Origin: Bacteroidales bacterium | GTDB lineage: Bacteria; Bacteroidota; Bacteroidia; Bacteroidales; UBA10428 | Direction of reading: 5' to 3' | Assembly: GCA_016938235.1 (NCBI GenBank) | Contig: JAFGVA010000058.1 | Coordinates: 1 to 64,000 of the forward strand | DNA: 64,000 nt | In this document: positions 3,538 to 31,569 of the stretch, in pieces | Position numbering within the stretch: the stretch's first letter is position 1 | How the letters are laid out: every line of letters starts with the position of its first letter | Program-made: the position numbers and the translations under genes | The notes under the pieces: model-generated | Seen by the model: the letters and a program-made list of their open reading frames with translations, nothing else | Told to the model about the DNA's origin: nothing | Databases searched by the model: none

Positions 3538-4755
3538 ATGGATAGATGTTCGTTTTGCGGTCGTGAGAAAAGAGATACGAACTTACTAATTGCTGGAATT
3601 TCCGGACACATTTGTGATAACTGCATTGAGCAGGCTTATGATATTGTGCAGGAGGAGCTTAAGAAAAAAGGCGATTTTGATGTAAATTCCTTAAAACTCA
3701 TTAAACCAGCAGAAATTAAAAAATTCCTCGATTTATATGTGATCGGACAGGATGAGGCTAAGAAATATTTGTCGGTTGCTGTTTACAATCACTACAAACG
3801 ATTGATGCACCATTCCAAGAAGGATGAAGAAGTTGAAATCGATAAATCGAATATTATTTTAGTTGGTGAGACCGGAACAGGAAAAACACTTTTGGCAAGA
3901 ACAATTGCTAAATTACTTCATGTACCTTTTACCATTGTTGATGCAACCGTATTAACAGAAGCCGGATATGTAGGCGAGGATATAGAAAGCATTCTTACCA
4001 GACTACTTCAGGTTGCTGACTACAATGTTGAGGCTGCTGAAAAAGGTATTGTTTTCATTGACGAAATTGATAAGATTGCCCGCAAATCCGATAATCCATC
4101 AATTACACGTGATGTTTCCGGCGAAGGTGTACAACAAGGACTATTAAAACTTCTGGAAGGCTCTGTTGTTAATGTTCCACCACAAGGAGGCCGTAAACAT
4201 CCCGACCAGAAAATGATTCCGGTTGACACACGTAATATTCTGTTTGTTTGTGGCGGTGCTTTCGATGGAATTGAAAAGAAAATAGGGCAAAGATTAAATA
4301 CCCAGGTTGTTGGTTATAAAGCTGTGCGCGGCATTGAAACCATCGACAGGTATAATCTTCTACAATATATTGCCCCGCAGGATTTAAAAGCATACGGACT
4401 CATTCCTGAAATTATTGGCCGACTACCTGTGCTTACATACTTAAATCCATTAGACAAAAAAGCGCTTCGCCAGATATTAACCGAGCCAAGAAATTCTATT
4501 ATCAAGCAATACGTCAAACTGTTTGAAATGGACGATATACAGCTTGTTTTTAAAAACGATGTGTTGGATTACATAGTTGAGAAAGCCATTGAATTTAAAT
4601 TGGGAGCTCGTGGTTTACGTTCAATTTGCGAAGCAATAATGATGGATGCAATGTACGATCTTCCATCTACCGAGACTAAAGAAATAACAATTACAAAAAA
4701 ATACGCTACCGAAAAAATTGACAAACAAGACATTAAGCGATTAAAGGTTGCCTAG
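3538..4755 (+). CDS. clpX: ATP-dependent Clp protease ATP-binding subunit ClpX
   Basis: A 405-residue AAA+ unfoldase, the partner of ClpP. The N-terminal zinc-binding domain uses Cys4, Cys7, Cys26 and Cys29. Walker A GETGTGKT is at 110-117, the pore loop GYVG at 143-146 and Walker B FIDEID at 173-178. A C-terminal sensor-2 segment [10 protein letters not shown] follows. The protein recognises tagged substrates, unfolds them and translocates them into ClpP. Length and all functional motifs match the family. Confidence 0.97.
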
Positions 4756-4757
4756 GG

Positions 4758-4790
4758 CTTGTTTATTTCAATAATTATAATTTATATTTG
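4758..4790 (+). promoter_or_regulatory. trp operon promoter
   Basis: TATATTTG (4783-4790) matches TAnnTTTG exactly, and CTTG ending at 4761 lies 21 bases upstream, the spacing expected for the TTTG -33 element. The start of transcription would be about 4797, giving a short leader in front of trpL. Confidence 0.6.
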
Positions 4791-4809
4791 CATTGTTAAA
4801 CACAAAGAA

Positions 4810-4875
4810 ATGAATCAGATTTTCCGTACAAATTGGTGGTGGTGGCACAAAGTACTGCACGATTTCGTGAGATAG
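4810..4875 (+). CDS. trpL: trp operon leader peptide with four consecutive Trp codons
   Basis: An ATG at 4810 opens a 21-codon frame ending in TAG at 4873-4875. Codons 9-12 (4834-4845) are TGG four times in a row, within the peptide segment RTNWWWWHKVL. A Trp-rich short frame between a promoter and an intrinsic terminator just ahead of trpE is the hallmark of ribosome-mediated transcription attenuation: with scarce charged tRNA-Trp the ribosome stalls here and the operon is read through. The frame is too short for usual gene-calling cut-offs. Confidence 0.9.
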   Translation: MNQIFRTNWWWWHKVLHDFVR

Positions 4876-4945
4876 CGACCCCATTGTCCGGATTATATAA
4901 ATATATTAAACGGCCTGTCGTACTCACGACAGGCCGTTTTGATTT
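4865..4945 (+). promoter_or_regulatory. trp attenuator: terminator and competing antiterminator
   Basis: Terminator: AACGGCCTGTCGT (4909-4921) and ACGACAGGCCGTT (4926-4938) form a perfect 13-bp stem with loop ACTC, followed by TTGATTTT. Antiterminator: TCGTGAG (4865-4871) pairs with CTCACGA (4923-4929), and after a small internal loop GCGAC (4875-4879) pairs with GTCGT (4917-4921). The two folds share bases 4917-4929 and exclude each other. A ribosome stalled on the Trp codons leaves 4865-4879 free, so the antiterminator forms. A ribosome reaching the stop codon at 4875 covers this segment, so the terminator forms. The pairing was worked out by eye, without energy calculation. Confidence 0.85.
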
Positions 4946-4969
4946 TAAAGACTTTGAAAAACAACCAGT

Positions 4970-6373
4970 ATGAGTAAAATAAAATTTAAAGTAAAAACCA
5001 AACACATGCTTGCCGACCTTGTGACACCGGTAGGCATATTTCTTTCAGCCAGATCAAAGTATAAAAATTCTATTCTGCTTGAAAGTTCCGACTATCATGG
5101 AAATGAAAACAGTTTCTCATTCATTTGTCTTGAACCCATTGCCAGCTTTGTGGTTAAAGATTTCAATGCTGTTGCCTCATTGCCAAACCAGGAAACTCAA
5201 CAAACCGTTATAAACAAGCCGGTTGATTTCAGAACTAGTTTTAATACTTTTATTGAGAGTTTTGATGTTGAAACCAATTCCGATCTGCCTGTGAATGGCA
5301 TCTTTGGTTATTGCGAATTCGATTCTGTGCAATATTTCGAAACAATTCGTTTTAAGAATGAACATAAAACGGAATATAGCATACCCCAGGTTCATTACAA
5401 TTTCTACAAATACATTATCGCAATTAACCATTATAAAAACGATTTACACATTATAGAGAACCTGCAAGAGGGAGAAATCAGCAATATTCAAGAAATTGAA
5501 ACCTTAATTAAAAGCAAGGACTTTAATACTTCTTCATTCACTCCGGGCAACAATGAAAAATCGAACCTTACTGATGATGAATATATGCAGTTGGTTACCA
5601 ATGGCAAAAAACATTGTTATCGTGGCGACGTTTTCCAGATTGTTTTATCGCGTCAGTTTTCGCAGACTTATACAGGAGACGAGTTTAATGTTTACAGGGC
5701 TTTACGTTCAATAAATCCTTCGCCTTACCTTTTTTATTTCGATTATGAAGAATATAAAATTTTTGGTTCTTCGCCTGAAGCCCAGATAAAAATTCAGAAT
5801 GAAAGAGCTACAATTAATCCAATAGCAGGCACTTTTAAGCGTACTGGCAATGACGAAAAAGACAAACAGCTTGCAAAAGAATTAGCCGAAGATAAGAAAG
5901 AAAATGCTGAACACGTTATGTTGGTTGACCTGGCAAGAAACGATTTAAGCAGGTATGCTTCTGATGTTCGGGTTGACAGCTATCGCGAAATTCAATATTA
6001 TTCGCATGTTCTGCACATGGTTTCAACTGTTTCCGGGAAATTGCATCGGCCAGATAATGTAATTGATATGATGATGGCAACATTTCCTGCCGGCACACTA
6101 TCCGGCGCTCCAAAATACAAAGCTATGGAGCTGATAGACAAATATGAAAACCAGAACAGGGGGTATTATGGAGGAGCAATCGGTTATATAGGTTTCGACG
6201 GCACCCTGAATCATGCCATAATGATAAGAACCTTTCTGAGTAAAAACAAAACCTTATACTACCAGGCTGGAGCCGGAATTGTTTCTGTTTCAAAAGAAGA
6301 AAGTGAACTCCAGGAAGTTAACAATAAGCTCGGAGCGCTTAAAAAAGCTATTAACCTTGCAAAAGATTTATAA
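4970..6373 (+). CDS. trpE: anthranilate synthase component I
   Basis: A 467-residue chorismate-utilising enzyme that makes anthranilate from chorismate with ammonia supplied by TrpG; first committed step of tryptophan synthesis. An N-terminal regulatory part holds ILLESSD (residues about 35-41), the motif that forms the Trp feedback-inhibition site. The C-terminal catalytic half shows PIAGTFKRTG, ENAEHVMLVDLARND and GTLSGAPKYKAM, all diagnostic. It is the first structural gene after the attenuator. Confidence 0.96.
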   Translation: MSKIKFKVKTKHMLADLVTPVGIFLSARSKYKNSILLESSDYHGNENSFSFICLEPIASFVVKDFNAVASLPNQETQQTVINKPVDFRTSFNTFIESFDVETNSDLPVNGIFGYCEFDSVQYFETIRFKNEHKTEYSIPQVHYNFYKYIIAINHYKNDLHIIENLQEGEISNIQEIETLIKSKDFNTSSFTPGNNEKSNLTDDEYMQLVTNGKKHCYRGDVFQIVLSRQFSQTYTGDEFNVYRALRSINPSPYLFYFDYEEYKIFGSSPEAQIKIQNERATINPIAGTFKRTGNDEKDKQLAKELAEDKKENAEHVMLVDLARNDLSRYASDVRVDSYREIQYYSHVLHMVSTVSGKLHRPDNVIDMMMATFPAGTLSGAPKYKAMELIDKYENQNRGYYGGAIGYIGFDGTLNHAIMIRTFLSKNKTLYYQAGAGIVSVSKEESELQEVNNKLGALKKAINLAKDL

Positions 6374-6475: not shown

Positions 6476-7048
6476 ATGAATATACTGGTATTAGATAATT
6501 ACGACTCGTTTACATACAACCTGGTGCATTACATCGAAAACCTGACAGATGGAGATGTGATTGATGTATTCAGAAATGATGAGATTGCGCTTGATGAAGT
6601 AGACAAATACGATAAGATTTTACTTTCGCCCGGACCAGGAATACCCGAAGAAGCGGGGATATTGCTTGATTTAATAAAGAAATATGCACCTACAAAAAGT
6701 ATTTTCGGAGTTTGCCTTGGACATCAGGCCATTGCAGAGGCTTTTGGCGGCAGTTTAATAAACCTTGATACTGTTTATCATGGAGTTTCAACCTTCATAG
6801 ATGTGGTGACCCCGGATGATATCCTTTACAAATCATTACCCGGGAGGTTCGAAGTTGGAAGGTATCATTCATGGGCAGTGTCAAGAGAAAATCTGCCCTC
6901 ATGTTTTAAAATAAACAGTCTCGACGAACATGGAATGATAATGGGAATAACACATAAAGAATACGATGTTCGTGGAGTCCAATATCATCCCGAGTCTGTG
7001 TTAACTCCTGAAGGTCTTAAAATAGTTGAGAACTGGTTAAGAAACTAA
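6476..7048 (+). CDS. trpG: anthranilate synthase component II (glutamine amidotransferase)
   Basis: A 190-residue class I amidotransferase that hydrolyses glutamine and passes ammonia to TrpE. The oxyanion motif SPGPGIPEE is at 51-59, the nucleophile Cys80 lies in GVCLGHQ, and His171 and Glu173 in YHPESV complete the triad. It is free-standing, not fused to trpD or trpE. It follows trpE after about 100 bases holding a strong hairpin. In some bacteria this subunit also serves folate synthesis (PabA); its place in the trp operon points to tryptophan as the main role. Confidence 0.95.
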   Translation: MNILVLDNYDSFTYNLVHYIENLTDGDVIDVFRNDEIALDEVDKYDKILLSPGPGIPEEAGILLDLIKKYAPTKSIFGVCLGHQAIAEAFGGSLINLDTVYHGVSTFIDVVTPDDILYKSLPGRFEVGRYHSWAVSRENLPSCFKINSLDEHGMIMGITHKEYDVRGVQYHPESVLTPEGLKIVENWLRN

Positions 7049-24312: not shown

Positions 24313-27159
24313 TTAATTCTTAGCAGCTGTATCAAGCTCAGCTTTAAGAAATTTTGCTGTATAACTAATATTCTGGTTCATAATATCTTCTGGTGTTCCT
24401 TCTGCCAGAATTTCGCCACCTCCCTGGCCTCCTTCTTTTCCCATGTCGATAATATGGTCGGCTACTTTTATAACATCCAGGTTATGTTCAATTACTACAA
24501 CCGTATTTCCCTTGTTTACCAGCTTGTTTAATACCTCAAGCAATACCCTTATGTCCTCAAAATGCAAGCCGGTTGTAGGTTCATCAAGAATATAAAGCGT
24601 TTTGCCTGTATCGCGTTTTGCAAGCTCCGATGCTAATTTCACACGTTGACTTTCGCCTCCCGAAAGGGTAGTTGATGGTTGACCCAAAGTGATATATCCA
24701 AGTCCGACTTTCTGAATAGTTTTAATTTTTTTAATAATTGACGGAATATTTTCAAAAAAGTCAACAGCCTGGTTAATTGTCATGTCAAGCACATCACTTA
24801 TTGATCGGCCTTTGTACTTAACTTCAAGAGTTTCGCGGTTGTATCTTTTGCCGGCACAATCTTTACAAACTACGTATACATCGGGCAGAAAATTCATTTC
24901 AATGGTTTGAACTCCTGCACCCTGACAGGTTTCACACCTTCCCCCCTTTACATTAAAGGAGAACCTGCCGGGCTTATATCCCCTTATTTTGGCTTCTCTT
25001 GTCTGGGTGAAAAGATTACGAATATCTGAAAACACACCGGTATAGGTTGCCGGATTCGATCTTGGTGTTCTTCCCAGAGGTGATTGGTCAACGTCAATTA
25101 CTTTATCGATGTGCTCAAGCCCTTGAATGCTTTTATAGGGCAAAATTTCATACTTTGAACGATAAAAGTGCTGACTTAAAATAGGGTAAAGGGTTTCATT
25201 AATAACTGAAGATTTTCCGCTTCCCGACACTCCTGTTACGCAAATAAGTTTACCAAGAGGAATCTTTAAGTCAACATTTTTCAGATTATGGCCCGTGGCC
25301 CCTTTCAGTTCAATAAATTTTCCGGTGCCTTCTCTTCTGCACTCAGGTATTTCAATGTTCTTATCGCCATTAATATACGATGCCGTGAGTCCCTTCGATT
25401 TTAAAATATTTTGCGGTTCACCCTGGAAAACAACCTCGCCACCGTGTCTGCCGGCATGTGGTCCCAAATCAATCAGGTAATCTGCCGAAAGCATCATTTC
25501 CTTATCGTGTTCCACTACAATAATTGAATTGCCGGAATCACGTAAAATTTTTAATGCATTAATTAGTTTTTCATTATCGCGTTGGTGAAGTCCAATACTG
25601 GGTTCGTCGAGAATGTATAAAACATTTACCAGCTGAGAACCAATTTGGGTTGCAAGGCGAATACGCTGACTTTCGCCACCGGATAAACTACGCGAAGGCA
25701 TGTTTAAAGACAGATAGTACAATCCCACATCGAGCAAAAAATTCACTCTTGTTCGAAGTTCCTTTAATATCTCGGATGCAATTTTTAACTGGCGTTCATC
25801 TAAATTCCCATCAACATTATCTAACCATTTTGATAGTTCCGAAATATCCATTGAGGCTAATTCGGCAATGTTTTTATCATGAATCCTGAATTGTAAAGCT
25901 TCTTTCTTTAAGCGCTTACCATGACATTCGTCGCAGGTAACTTTTTTAACAAATTGTTGGGCCCAGCCTAATTCTTTAGAATTATTATCGTTGTTATTCT
26001 GCAGGTTATTAATGTAATTTACTACTCCTTCGAAACTCAGGAAATAGTTTGATGAGCTGCCCAAAGGGGTGTTCTCCAGCTTAAAGGGCTCTTCGGAACC
26101 ATAAAGAATGATATTCAATGCATCATCGGGAATAGAATCCACCGAATCGGCCAGATCGAAATTATATTTTCGTGCTATTGCTTCAAGTTGCCAGAAAATG
26201 AGCGAATTTTTATATGCTCCCAGAGGCTCGATGGCTCCCTTTTTAATGCTCTTCTTTTTGTTGGGTATAATTTTACTTATATCTACCTCACTTACAACAC
26301 CCAGACCATTACATTTAGGGCATGCTCCCTGTGGAGAATTAAATGAAAAAGAATGCGGAGCAGGTTCATTATATGAGATGCCCGACGTGGGGCACATAAG
26401 TTGCTTGCTGTAATGCCTTACCTCCTTAGACTCTTTATTCATGAGCATGATGCTTCCCTTACCATGTTTCATGGCTTCATCAATCGATTTCTTTAAACGT
26501 TTTACATCGGCTTCGCTTTCAGTAACTATAAGCTTGTCAACAACAATTTCGATGCTATGGTTTTTGTATCGATCGACTCTTAAGCCATGCTTTATTTCAA
26601 CAATTTCACCATCGATGCGAACGTTCAAATAACCTTTTCGAAGAATCTGTTCAAAGAGCTCCTTATAGTGACCTTTTCTGTTTTTTACAATCGGGGCCAG
26701 AATATATACTCCTTTTGAAATAAACTGTTTGTTTATCAGGTCAAGAATCTGGTCGTCGGTATATTTCACCATTTTTTCACCGGTAACATAAGAATAGGCA
26801 TGTCCGGCGCGGGCAAACAGCAGCCTGAGAAAGTCATATATTTCGGTTGTTGTACCAACTGTTGAACGTGGATTCTTGTTGGTGGTTTTTTGTTCGATGC
26901 TTATAACAGGGCTTAAACCTGTAATTTTATCCACATCAGGTCGCTCCATGTTACCCAAAAACTGGCGTGCATAAGCCGAAAGTGTCTCAATATATCTTCT
27001 TTGTCCTTCGGCATATATTGTATCAAATGCAAGGCTTGATTTTCCGCTGCCACTTAAGCCGGTAATTACTGTTAGTTTATCCCGGGGAATTGTAACATCT
27101 ATATTTTTCAGATTGTGTACCCTGGCACCATATACGCTGATAGTATTCTCGCTTTCCAT
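24313..27159 (-). CDS. uvrA: excinuclease ABC subunit A
   Basis: A 948-residue DNA-damage recognition ATPase of nucleotide excision repair. Two ABC modules are present, with Walker [10 protein letters not shown] (34-42) and GVSGSGKSS, signatures [12 protein letters not shown] and [12 protein letters not shown], and Walker B segments [10 protein letters not shown] and [10 protein letters not shown]. Zinc modules (CPxxG...CPKCNG and CETCQG...CKDC) are in place. It lies 21 bases after mltD. Bacteroidota often have several UvrA copies; this one looks complete and canonical. Confidence 0.96.
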
Positions 27160-27180
27160 AGATTTTCTAAATTACCAGAC

Positions 27181-28119
27181 TTATTTTGTCTCTCTGGCAT
27201 TTCTTTTGGGTATTCTTATTGTATAGGTTTTACCGGTTTTATTACTTAGCTTTTCAACCCTCAGCCAGGGATTAAGAAATTTAATAAGCTTGTAATTGGT
27301 ATTATGTTCATGAGCAAAGTCGGCCCAGCTTTCAACAGGCACATCAATATCAATTTCTTTGTAGGGTATAACTTGATATCTCTTTTCAACAGGCATAATG
27401 AATCCATATTTTTCAGGATTCTCAAAAACCAGCTTAAAGGCTAATGCTCTGTAAACATATCTTGCAGTTTCTTCATTGAAAAGCAGGTCGTAATAGTTAT
27501 TTTCTTTTTGTTTTTCAATTTGCCTGTCAACGCCTCTTCTGCCAACATTGTAAGAAGCAGCAGCCAGTGTCCATGACTGGTACCTATCGAATGATTCCTG
27601 AAAATACTTACAGGCTGCAACAGTTGATTTTTCAATATGATATCGTTCATCAACCTCTTCATTTATTTCCAGTCCGTAATCTTTGGCTGTGCCTTCCAAT
27701 AATTGCCAGAAACCTGTGGCACCGGCAGGCGAAACAACATTTTGTAATCCGCTTTCTGCAATGGCAAGGTATTTAAAGTCGTCGGGTATGTTATTCTGTT
27801 GCAGAATGGGTTCAATTTCGGGAAAATACCTGTTTGCTCTTTGAATTAGCCAGATTGTTTGGGAGTGCCAATACATATTAACCGTTAATTCGCGCTCCAG
27901 GCTTTCCTTAACATCAAAATATTCAACCGGAACCCTTTCAAAGCAAAAATCTATGGTGTCTGGCAGTATAGGTGTACTTGCAATAAAAGGAACAGTATTT
28001 ACTGTTTCTTCCATCATGTCAATTCTTGAAGCTTTAAGAATAAGAAAAGCTACAATTAAAATAAATGTTCCGGTAATATACCAATGCGGTGCAAGGTGTT
28101 TTGATTTATTGTTACTCAT
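27181..28119 (-). CDS. mltD: membrane-anchored lytic transglycosylase
   Basis: A 312-residue protein with a short cytoplasmic tail, one membrane helix (about 12-30) and an SLT-type lytic transglycosylase domain. Glu122 in [10 protein letters not shown] is the catalytic acid; [13 protein letters not shown] and AAASYNVG complete the family motifs. The C-terminal part resembles a degenerate LysM repeat ([11 protein letters not shown]...[12 protein letters not shown]). It cleaves peptidoglycan to 1,6-anhydro products for wall remodelling. The gene symbol is by domain similarity only. Confidence 0.82.
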
Positions 28120-28263: not shown

Positions 28264-29679
28264 TCAGAATGAATATTTTATTCCTGAAAATACGCCCAGA
28301 GAGTAGGGGTGCAAATCAATATAATCGCCATAGAGTTGATTATTCAGGAAATATTTGAACTGGGGTTCGAGCGACATAACAAGCGTACCCGATAGTTCAT
28401 AACTAAAACCTAAACCTAATGTACTACTGTAATTTACAGTGTTTACATCGGCAGTTTCGAAATTAGTGTAATTATCTTTTGTATTAAAAGCAACCTTATT
28501 CGAAATCAAAACATTGGTACTGAATCCACCAATAAGTTTCAGCGCCAGTTTTCTATCAATTATAGCATAGCGTGCTAAAAAGGGGATTTCAATATACTCA
28601 TAGTTCCTCCATGCCGGCATGTTTGTTGCCGGGTAACTATTGTAGTTGTTTAAATCTTCGTTACTGCTGCCTATTGCATCTGTGCTGTTTTTTGCAACTA
28701 TTTTCACTGATGAATTAGGGAACATAAATTTTGAACTTCCATCAAGTCTTGCCGTGTTATTGGCATATGAAATGGATGTTGGGTCTGCAATATTAGTAGA
28801 ATAATTGGGAATAGCCTCCTGTTCAATTCCCAGTTTAGAATAATATATACCTGATTGAATTGAAAACCTGCTTGCTGTTTGATATTCTACCTGCACTCCC
28901 CCGGTAAATGAAACTATTCCTGATTCACTACTGTTGTTTGGAGCAAGTGCTTGTTCTGAATAATAATCAGAAGAAAGCGTTCTGTATGAATATTGTGGTC
29001 CGGCCTGACCGCCAATCAGCCATTTGCCATCGTTTAAGCTGCTGCCCTTCTCTTCAGAGCCCCAAACAAGATTTTCCTGAGCTTCAGTCGCATTGTTTTG
29101 ATATTCGTTTGAAACAGTTTCTTCGGTAATAAAGATTTCATCTGAACTTTCTGATACCGACTCGCTGTTTGGAGAAATTGGCTGCGGCACTGTTTGGTTG
29201 TTATTTAATGAAGAAACAACAGCAAATTCATTATTTTCGGCGATAATACTGTTTTCTTTATTATTCTTTTCTTCACTTTTTGCATAAACAGTTTGTTTAA
29301 GCTTTGAGTCAGTTTTTTTATTCTCCTGTTTAGCTAATTTTCTGTTTTGTTGATGAATTGAATTTACCCGTTCACCATTAGCTTTAATTAATGCCGATTC
29401 AGGTTTATGTTCAAGAGCAGGATTATTCACATCAGTATCAGTAACAGTTTCGACCGAAGAGGGTTGATTGAAGAATAAATAACCTGCAATACCAGCTGTT
29501 GCAAGGAACAGGGCAATGCCAGCAGCAATTTTCCAAAAATTAAAAAGCACAACTTTCTTAGCTGAAGATTGGCTTAATACCATGGCAATATTTTCCCAGG
29601 CTCCTTCAGGGAGCTCCGGAGAAAAGTTCTTTAGTTCCTCTTCAAACAATTTATCAATATTTTCAAACTTATCACTCAT
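28264..29679 (-). CDS. predicted dual-membrane-spanning anti-sigma factor (cytoplasmic domain, TM helix, periplasmic linker, outer-membrane barrel)
   Basis: A 471-residue protein placed three bases after an ECF sigma gene. Residues 1-45 are cytoplasmic and helical (FEEELKNFSPELPEGAWENI), like the short sigma-binding segment of Bacteroidota anti-sigma factors. Residues 47-70 form one inner-membrane helix. Residues 71-215 are low-complexity, rich in Asn, Ser, Lys and Glu, long enough to cross the periplasm. Residues 219-471 are an outer-membrane barrel with aromatic alternating strands and the C-terminal GIKYSF ending in Phe, the usual BAM signal. There is no cleavable signal peptide. This layout matches the Dma class of anti-sigma factors reported in Bacteroides thetaiotaomicron. 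A plain porin-like reading does not explain the TM helix and N-terminus. Confidence 0.75.
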   Translation of the reverse strand: MSDKFENIDKLFEEELKNFSPELPEGAWENIAMVLSQSSAKKVVLFNFWKIAAGIALFLATAGIAGYLFFNQPSSVETVTDTDVNNPALEHKPESALIKANGERVNSIHQQNRKLAKQENKKTDSKLKQTVYAKSEEKNNKENSIIAENNEFAVVSSLNNNQTVPQPISPNSESVSESSDEIFITEETVSNEYQNNATEAQENLVWGSEEKGSSLNDGKWLIGGQAGPQYSYRTLSSDYYSEQALAPNNSSESGIVSFTGGVQVEYQTASRFSIQSGIYYSKLGIEQEAIPNYSTNIADPTSISYANNTARLDGSSKFMFPNSSVKIVAKNSTDAIGSSNEDLNNYNSYPATNMPAWRNYEYIEIPFLARYAIIDRKLALKLIGGFSTNVLISNKVAFNTKDNYTNFETADVNTVNYSSTLGLGFSYELSGTLVMSLEPQFKYFLNNQLYGDYIDLHPYSLGVFSGIKYSF

Positions 29680-29682
29680 TTT

Positions 29683-30294
29683 TTATCGCACTCCTACTCT
29701 TAAATCGTTATGATATAATTGTTTTATTTTTTCCTGAAGTATAATTCGGGCTCTTGAAAGGTTCGATTTTGAAGTACCCTCAGAAATACCCAATAAATCA
29801 GATATCTCTTTGTGGCTATATCCTTCAATGGCATAAAGGTTAAATACGGTTCTGTACTTTGGAGATAATTCTTCGATTAACAATACCATTTCTTTGGCGG
29901 TTATGGCATCTGTTATTGAGTCGAAAGAATTCTCCGAACCTTCACGCCAGCCGCCATCCTGAATATTTATTATGGTATACTGTACACGATATTTTTCAAG
30001 GGCAGTATTAACAAAAATCCGGCGCATCCAACCTTCGAAAGAACCTTTAAATTCAAACTGATGAATTTTTTCAAAAGTTTTCAAAAAGCCTTCCTGCAGA
30101 ATATCCTGGGCATCGTCCCTGTTTCCTGCATACCTCAGGCAAATACCAAACATCTTCGAGCCCATTAAGTCATATAAGTCTTTCTGGGCACGAATATCTT
30201 TTTGTTGGCAGCCAACAACAATATTTTCAAGCTTATCATTCAAGGCCTGAACATTATTCTTCAAAGTTAAAATAATCCTACCTTTTTCCTCCAA
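29683..30294 (-). CDS. ECF RNA polymerase sigma factor
   Basis: A 203-residue sigma-70 family protein of the ECF type. Region 2 (DAQDILQEGFLKTFEKIHQFEFKG, then WMRRIFVN) and region 4 (LSPKYRTVFNLYAIEGYSHKEISDLLGISEGTSKSNLSRAR) are clear; the C-terminus is short. The start is uncertain by up to about 15 residues. It is co-transcribed with the downstream barrel-bearing anti-sigma protein, which should hold it inactive until an envelope signal arrives. No typical TAnnTTTG is visible upstream, which would fit autoregulation from an ECF-specific promoter. Confidence 0.92.
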   Translation of the reverse strand: MEEKGRIILTLKNNVQALNDKLENIVVGCQQKDIRAQKDLYDLMGSKMFGICLRYAGNRDDAQDILQEGFLKTFEKIHQFEFKGSFEGWMRRIFVNTALEKYRVQYTIINIQDGGWREGSENSFDSITDAITAKEMVLLIEELSPKYRTVFNLYAIEGYSHKEISDLLGISEGTSKSNLSRARIILQEKIKQLYHNDLRVGVR

Positions 30295-30535
30295 TTTCTC
30301 TCAGTATTGTTGTTAGCTTGTATAAGATGCAAAACACAGGCCGATGGTTGCGTCAGATCTGGTTTTTCTTTTAATATTTTCCTTAAAGGTTTATATTATT
30401 TGGTATAATTATTGAAGTTACAGATAATTAAGAATTACTGGTTTTATTCTTTTTTTGACTTATTAATAAAATTTTTATAACCAGCTTTTCGTTGATATTG
30501 CATCTATTATAACCAAAACCCTTAGTTGAACCAAG

Positions 30536-30873: not shown

Positions 30874-31569
30874 ATGGTTGAAATATCAGGATTACATAAG
30901 TCTTATATTACCGGAACAAATAGTCTTCACGTTTTAAAGGGCATTGACCTTACAATTGAAGCCGGAGAGATGGTTTCGATAATGGGGTCATCAGGATCTG
31001 GTAAGTCTACACTACTGAATGTAATAGGAATATTAGATGGTTACGATAAAGGCGAATATAATCTAAACGGAAAAGTGATTCGTGATTTATCAGAGAAACA
31101 AGCTGCGTGGTACAGAAATCAGATGATTGGCTTTGTTTTTCAGTCATTTAATCTGATTTCCTTTAAAAATGCGCTGGAAAATGTTGCATTGCCACTCTAC
31201 TATCAGAAAATACCTCGTAGAAAAAGAAACAAAATAGCCGCCGAATACCTTGAAAAGGTTGGTTTATTGGATTGGGCAACCCATTTGCCCAGCGAATTAT
31301 CCGGTGGTCAAAAACAACGAATTGCCATTGCAAGAGCGCTGATCTCAAATCCCAAAGTAATTCTTGCCGACGAACCTACCGGAGCTTTAGATACACAGAC
31401 CTCCTATGAGGTTATGGAACTTTTTAAGGAAATTAACGATTCCGGTATTACCATGATAATTGTAACTCACGAAAAGGATATATCTGAGCGGACTAAGCGT
31501 ATTATCCATTTAAAAGATGGTTTTATTGAAAAGGAGTACAAAACTAAATTAAGTCTGAACTATGCTTGA
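30874..31569 (+). CDS. ABC transporter ATP-binding protein, MacB/LolD type
   Basis: A 231-residue ATPase starting MVEISGLHKSY; an upstream in-frame ATG at 30799 lies within the promoter region and is rejected. Walker A GSSGSGKSTLLN, signature LSGGQKQRIAIARAL and Walker B VILADEPTGALD are complete. It belongs to the MacB/LolD/FtsE group that powers mechanotransmission transporters. The last eight bases overlap the first permease gene, so the two are translationally coupled. Confidence 0.92.
   Translation: MVEISGLHKSYITGTNSLHVLKGIDLTIEAGEMVSIMGSSGSGKSTLLNVIGILDGYDKGEYNLNGKVIRDLSEKQAAWYRNQMIGFVFQSFNLISFKNALENVALPLYYQKIPRRKRNKIAAEYLEKVGLLDWATHLPSELSGGQKQRIAIARALISNPKVILADEPTGALDTQTSYEVMELFKEINDSGITMIIVTHEKDISERTKRIIHLKDGFIEKEYKTKLSLNYA

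Follow-up and report, generated by a model that had tools for sequence, protein, structure and literature searches.

Results

The minus strand of the 64,000-nt stretch analysed here (hereafter the window) carries, between positions 28264 and 30294, a gene for an ECF sigma factor (29683-30294) followed by a 471-codon ORF (28264-29679) encoding a partner protein of Dma-like layout, and the 3-nt gap between the two is the same in relatives. Regions 2 and 4 of the sigma factor are clear (Pfam Sigma70_r2 and Sigma70_r4, 3.6e-12 and 1.1e-17), and the best specific NCBIfam models scored below cut-off. Within the window's family the sigma factor shares 56-72% identity with its orthologues, which are 183-210 residues long, and the partner just 25-34%. 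Read from the listed start, TTG 30294, the sigma ORF encodes 203 residues, and from the in-frame TTG 30243 it encodes 186; most family orthologues have 183-189. Since the N-terminal extension of the 203-residue form would contain a conserved TAnnTTTG element (30269-30262), and since most relatives begin at the codon equivalent to TTG 30243, the true start is probably TTG 30243.

Next downstream lies a gene for an MltD-like lytic transglycosylase with an N-terminal membrane segment (27181-28119, minus; SLT domain, PF01464), and then uvrA. These two genes occupy 24313-28119 (minus), and the order sigma-Dma-MltD-uvrA recurs in most of the named Bacteroidales loci that extend far enough to reveal it; pairs of this layout that are more distantly related also occur in the order, outside this cluster. 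At one locus (L094:4443-7280), uvrA is split into two ORFs around position 4795, probably by a sequencing or assembly frameshift. On the other side of the pair, a divergent gene for a MacB/LolD-like ABC ATPase (30874-31569, plus) starts an efflux-type operon and is also a neighbour in several family loci; no promoter motif of the kind described below faces it. In four relatives (L007, L010, L018 and L025), serpin genes are divergent from and adjoin the sigma gene.

We modelled the partner with AlphaFold2, using an alignment of 44 homologues as input. Its N-terminus, taken to be cytoplasmic (codons 1-46; 29542-29679, minus), forms short helices at residues 6-16 and 27-37 and contains conserved D9, L16, P24, W28 and I31. 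A further helix (residues 40-70), preceded by positive charges, includes the single transmembrane (TM) helix (codons 47-70; 29470-29541, minus), and leads into a disordered N/E/S-rich linker (codons 71-215; 29035-29469, minus), where nearly all of residues 77-213 have a pLDDT below 50. This linker comprises 145 residues, with a range of 127-186 among the 44 homologues. The C-terminal part is modelled as an eight-strand outer-membrane beta-barrel (codons 219-471; 28267-29025, minus) that ends in KYSF, with eight main strands within residues 219-470 at a pLDDT mostly above 90. Consistent with this model, OMP_b-brl_2 (PF13568) is the sole domain match of the partner (residues 218-437, 2.1e-10, above the curated Pfam cut-off), and the closest solved structures found by Foldseek are small outer-membrane barrels of the OmpA, Ail, OmpX, OmpW and NspA type. 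The protein has no cysteine, and 38 of the 44 homologues share the C-terminal Phe. The reading in the earlier note of an ECF factor coupled to a protein with a short N-terminus, one TM helix, a long linker and a barrel ending in Phe is thus borne out.

That note had also named a cleaved signal peptide as an observation that would overturn its reading. Among the 44 homologues, the TM segment begins at residues 42-52, with a mean net charge of +3.8 directly before it and +0.1 after it. This charge step, together with the roughly 46 residues ahead of the TM segment, which place it too late for an ordinary signal peptide, argues that the segment stays attached as an anchor and leaves the N-terminus in the cytoplasm, rather than being cleaved off as a signal peptide. 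As modelled, one polypeptide appears to span the inner membrane, the periplasm and the outer membrane.

No Pfam anti-sigma model matches the N-terminus of the partner, and its two short helices ahead of the TM helix differ from the four-helix class I anti-sigma domain (ASDI; PMC7406223). A read-through fusion of the sigma factor and the partner, in which the stop is replaced by Gly at the natural in-frame junction, folds in prediction, as a model that carries no interface information. Covariation between the two proteins over 116 pairs (Neff 72) gave a top-20 mean of 2.97 SD vs at most 2.66 in 50 shuffles; these shuffles remove phylogeny, the top pairs are scattered, and we do not count the result as evidence.

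As the earlier note had suggested, we searched related genomes for the gene pair. A partner homologue was found in 21 of the 23 genomes of the window's family; none was found in G005 (97% complete) or G012 (69% complete). At least one profile match was present in 208 of 295 genomes of the order and in 45 of 198 genomes of a phylum sample, nearly all of the same class, where weak matches in the family, order and phylum tallies may be N-terminus-only or barrel-only. A set of 56 named loci was gathered by a pattern scan built on an 18-row alignment, the 44-row alignment being too diverse; a single-protein scan of the genome contigs gave no match. In every full-length relative with upstream DNA examined, an ECF gene lies directly upstream, except in L127, which is not a barrel protein. 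The pairing is thus tight across well over 100 relatives; it is not a chance arrangement and is widespread in its order. The sequence is divergent, as had been noticed earlier, and its lineage does differ from that of B. thetaiotaomicron, yet it is still one of the Bacteroidales.

The L127 protein itself (4493-5761, minus; 422 aa) joins a Dma-like N-terminus and TM segment to PKD domains and a CHU_C type IX secretion signal. We found no ECF gene beside it, and its sequence marks it as an odd, inner-membrane-anchored candidate type IX substrate. The window's own genome holds a second ECF/anti-sigma pair on contig C43 (L029:822-1962), followed by two exported proteins. The L029 anti-sigma protein has two copies of P-x-x-W-x-x-I and a TM segment without a barrel, and is matched by the N-terminus and TM region of the window's partner (E ~1e-7); the L029 pair may follow the logic of the sigma-Dma pair in split form. 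A candidate for a second Dma in this genome, at L030 on contig C222, was rejected on account of its missing N-terminal segment. There, a FecR-like protein is followed by a 465-aa protein resembling an STN domain, a linker and a small barrel, which from its sequence looks like an unusual surface-signalling component.

We then examined the DNA upstream of 107 sigma genes, where the dominant k-mer was ACGCAACC (present in 71 of them vs 0.2 expected from mononucleotide shuffles). With its -10 element, the promoter reads ACGCAACC-N16-CATC. GCAACn-N15..17-CATC precedes the sigma gene in 86 of the 107 loci, over many families, with a spacer of 16 in 77 of these 86. In the window, this element, CGCAACC-N16-CATC preceded by A, lies at 30326-30352 (minus) and is the sole exact match, while a one-mismatch site at position 6563 is within chance expectation. 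We predict that the 30326-30352 element is the autoregulatory promoter of the pair. The earlier suggestion that the 58-residue exported protein adjacent to the pair may be a target of the sigma factor is not supported: a search of the related loci detected no homologue of it, and no such promoter faces its ORF.

Downstream of the ECF-type promoter lies TAACTTTG (30262-30269, minus), a predicted basal promoter. TAnnTTTG is the housekeeping -7-like element of Bacteroidota, and it occurs 39-64 nt past the upstream CATC in 18 of the 20 family loci listed. Overall, TAnnTTTG was present in 29 of 88 loci vs 8 in shuffles.

Across the window's genome, CGCAACC-N15..17-CATC occurs at 13 sites (11 with N16, 2 with N15 and 0 with N17), while the reversed-pattern control gave 0. 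Summed over the per-genome table, the 21 family genomes with a partner contain 124 N16 sites vs 8 for the control, although some sister genomes that carry the pair have few (4 in G009, for example). In the two genomes where no partner was found, the counts were 1 vs 2 (G005) and 4 vs 0 (G012). In the order sample, the 30 strongest partner-bearing genomes total 152 sites vs 19, and the 19 listed genomes without a match 40 vs 25, mostly from G053 (14 vs 10). By autoregulation and co-occurrence, we provisionally assign the motif to the window's sigma factor.

We examined 50 N16 sites from eight genomes. An ORF follows 40 of them, in most cases with 12-70 nt between it and the -10 element. A signal sequence was predicted for 34 of these 40 motif-headed proteins vs about 29% of background ORFs (Fisher p ~1e-9), as judged by a simple custom rule on mechanically assigned ORF starts. 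In the window's genome, the pair itself is one site, and the other motif-headed genes encode three lipoproteins (L151, L153 and L158), two CBM9 proteins that carry a type IX sorting tail (L154 and L160), an O-antigen-ligase-like protein at the head of a gene run (L155) and a barrel-like exported protein (L159). A second barrel-like protein (L156) lies behind an N15 site. The motif also heads two operons (L157 and L161) that encode a small exported protein and then a C10 peptidase with a Spi inhibitor domain and a type IX tail. These two operons are related, lie on short contigs and are each placed about 200 nt past the same promoter motif.

In relatives, predicted targets include a serpin lipoprotein with its own CGCAACC-N16-CATC promoter (L163), an FKBP-like lipoprotein (L174), VIT/VWA proteins (L186 and L194), a vWF_A lipoprotein (L187) and a PKD protein (L188), and several target families recur between genomes. 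We regarded intragenic sites (L152, in susC, and L175, L181, L185, L190 and L191) as chance occurrences. A search of the window's genome (99% complete) for NigD_N proteins found none, whereas the control Bacteroides genome has NigD_N. Which genes the sigma factor drives, a question left open in the earlier note, can now be given a putative, testable answer at the sequence level.

Discussion

Taken together, we consider it probable that the pair is a Dma/Reo-type envelope-stress switch, for which the architecture and the ACGCAACC-N16-CATC promoter come from sequence and prediction, and whose working we infer as follows. In unstressed cells, the two short N-terminal helices would keep the sigma factor bound at the inner membrane, and the barrel, assembled by BAM, would sit in the outer membrane. 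Binding through two helices would be CnrY-like in outline, since in this class II anti-sigma factor two helices bind sigma4 and sigma2 (PMC7406223). Outer-membrane damage, a ligand on the barrel or failed barrel assembly would then change or cut the linker, and the N-terminal fragment would let the sigma factor go. Proteolytic release would fit with two proteases encoded in the window's genome, an M50 enzyme resembling RseP and one of DegP/HtrA-like type. Freed sigma would transcribe its own operon, as positive feedback over the housekeeping-type promoter, and would drive a small regulon of lipoproteins, T9SS-exported CBM9 proteins, C10 peptidase operons and an O-antigen-ligase operon, to which relatives would add serpins, VIT/VWA proteins and an FKBP-like lipoprotein.

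By analogy, the barrel likely senses outer-membrane damage or failed assembly and thereby releases the sigma factor. Published Dma/Reo relatives are proposed to sense outer-membrane stress, and in P. vulgatus both the toxin BcpT and the BamA inhibitor bacteroidetocin A induce EcfO-Reo; once active, EcfO-Reo raises expression of nigD lipoproteins as well as of a glycosyltransferase from the LPS region, and the O-antigen becomes longer (PMC9308784, PMC13114119). We favour an outer-membrane-damage switch with positive autoregulation because the predicted regulon resembles that of EcfO-Reo in its surface proteins and O-antigen ligation, minus NigD. A bolder version, which we hold to be possible and offer tentatively, is that the barrel itself senses outer-membrane assembly, the anti-sigma factor keeping silent only as long as BAM folds the barrel, and that in environmental Bacteroidales it commands a conserved CGCAACC-N16-CATC damage regulon that comprises protease inhibitors, C10 peptidases, surface lipoproteins and O-antigen ligation and lacks NigD.

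The signal might instead be a particular ligand, for instance a glycan, as has been suggested for Dma2, which affects PULs (PMC13088901). In the AlphaFold2 model the extracellular loops (such as residues 295-350) are long and of low confidence, as ligand sensing would allow, but the strongly conserved residues sit in the barrel body and strand ends and no SusCD-type operon promoter is among the targets predicted in the window's genome, where the sole susC match is intragenic; we regard ligand sensing in place of damage sensing as somewhat doubtful. Somewhat less likely again is that the pair represents this lineage's orthologue of B. thetaiotaomicron Das1-Dma1 (EcfO-Reo), controlling the formation of outer-membrane vesicles through NigD lipoproteins. 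Layout and gene order are as published for Dma1 and Reo (PMC13088901, PMC9308784), and the published regulons likewise consist mostly of surface lipoproteins with an LPS-glycan gene. Against this, the window's orthologue group sits in the sigma-dma-mltD-uvrA cluster, and NigD_N is missing from the proteins found in its genome. Vesicle control by Dma1 goes via NigD1, and by Dma2 by another route (PMC13088901), so the role in vesicle formation cited in the earlier note does not transfer to this pair.

Hierarchies among ECF factors are known, and the window's genome has other ECF genes, such as that at L029, one of which might mainly govern the ACGCAACC-N16-CATC regulon and control the pair as well. 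The presence of the motif ahead of the pair in most loci and its lack of enrichment in G005, where no pair was found, make this improbable. Finally, that the partner is an ordinary outer-membrane barrel whose TM segment is cleaved or serves as a signal anchor, with no part in sigma regulation, would accord with the absence of a recognised Pfam anti-sigma domain, but is very hard to reconcile with the 46 residues and positive cluster before the TM segment across the family, the conserved D9, L16, P24 and W28, the tight ECF pairing and the N-terminal match to the barrel-less L029 protein, whose gene directly follows a different ECF gene of the window's genome.

How Bacteroidota sense outer-membrane damage is the question that this pair addresses. 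They encode many ECF factors and few classical anti-sigma domains, with 6% of ECFs beside one (PMC7406223). The Dma/Reo architecture is already known, and the promoter and target list are the new part; the literature searched holds no report of either, and the founding papers (J Bacteriol 2013 and PNAS 2024), which lay outside that search, may describe this promoter. The predicted promoter is a ready reporter, and comes with a target list, for asking what Dma/Reo systems respond to, and what they control, in bacteria other than gut Bacteroides. The ancestral output that it suggests is surface-protein defence, not NigD or vesicles as such.

Judged from the models, the pair shows every structural feature testable here of the Dma1-3/EcfO-Reo layout, and it is set beside these systems by their published descriptions. 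Like Dma1/Das1 and Dma2/Das2, it consists of an ECF gene and a downstream anti-sigma gene whose product would run from the inner membrane through the periplasm to the outer membrane; unlike them, its genome has no detected NigD, its predicted targets are others and no PUL target is predicted. EcfO-Reo of B. fragilis and P. vulgatus shares the layout, an anti-sigma factor poorly conserved between species, a regulon of lipoproteins and LPS-glycan functions and, likely, outer-membrane stress as the signal. In contrast to EcfO-Reo, the window's group adjoins MltD/uvrA and a divergent serpin or ABC transporter, and its predicted regulon contains C10 peptidases and CBM9/T9SS proteins. In FecI/FecR and its TonB-dependent transducer, a signal likewise runs from the outer membrane to an ECF sigma factor, but through three proteins, whereas here a single polypeptide with a small eight-strand barrel and no plug or STN domain would suffice; the neighbours at the locus are the MltD-like, uvrA and ABC/MacB genes, with no FecR or TonB-dependent transducer among them. 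No sequence similarity of the partner to RseA or CnrY was detected. CnrY has a two-helix sigma-binding segment (PMC7406223) such as is predicted for the partner. RseA, unlike the partner, has a folded domain in the periplasm and works with a separate sensor, but in E. coli sigmaE/RseA, as proposed here, a membrane-anchored anti-sigma factor is freed by envelope stress.
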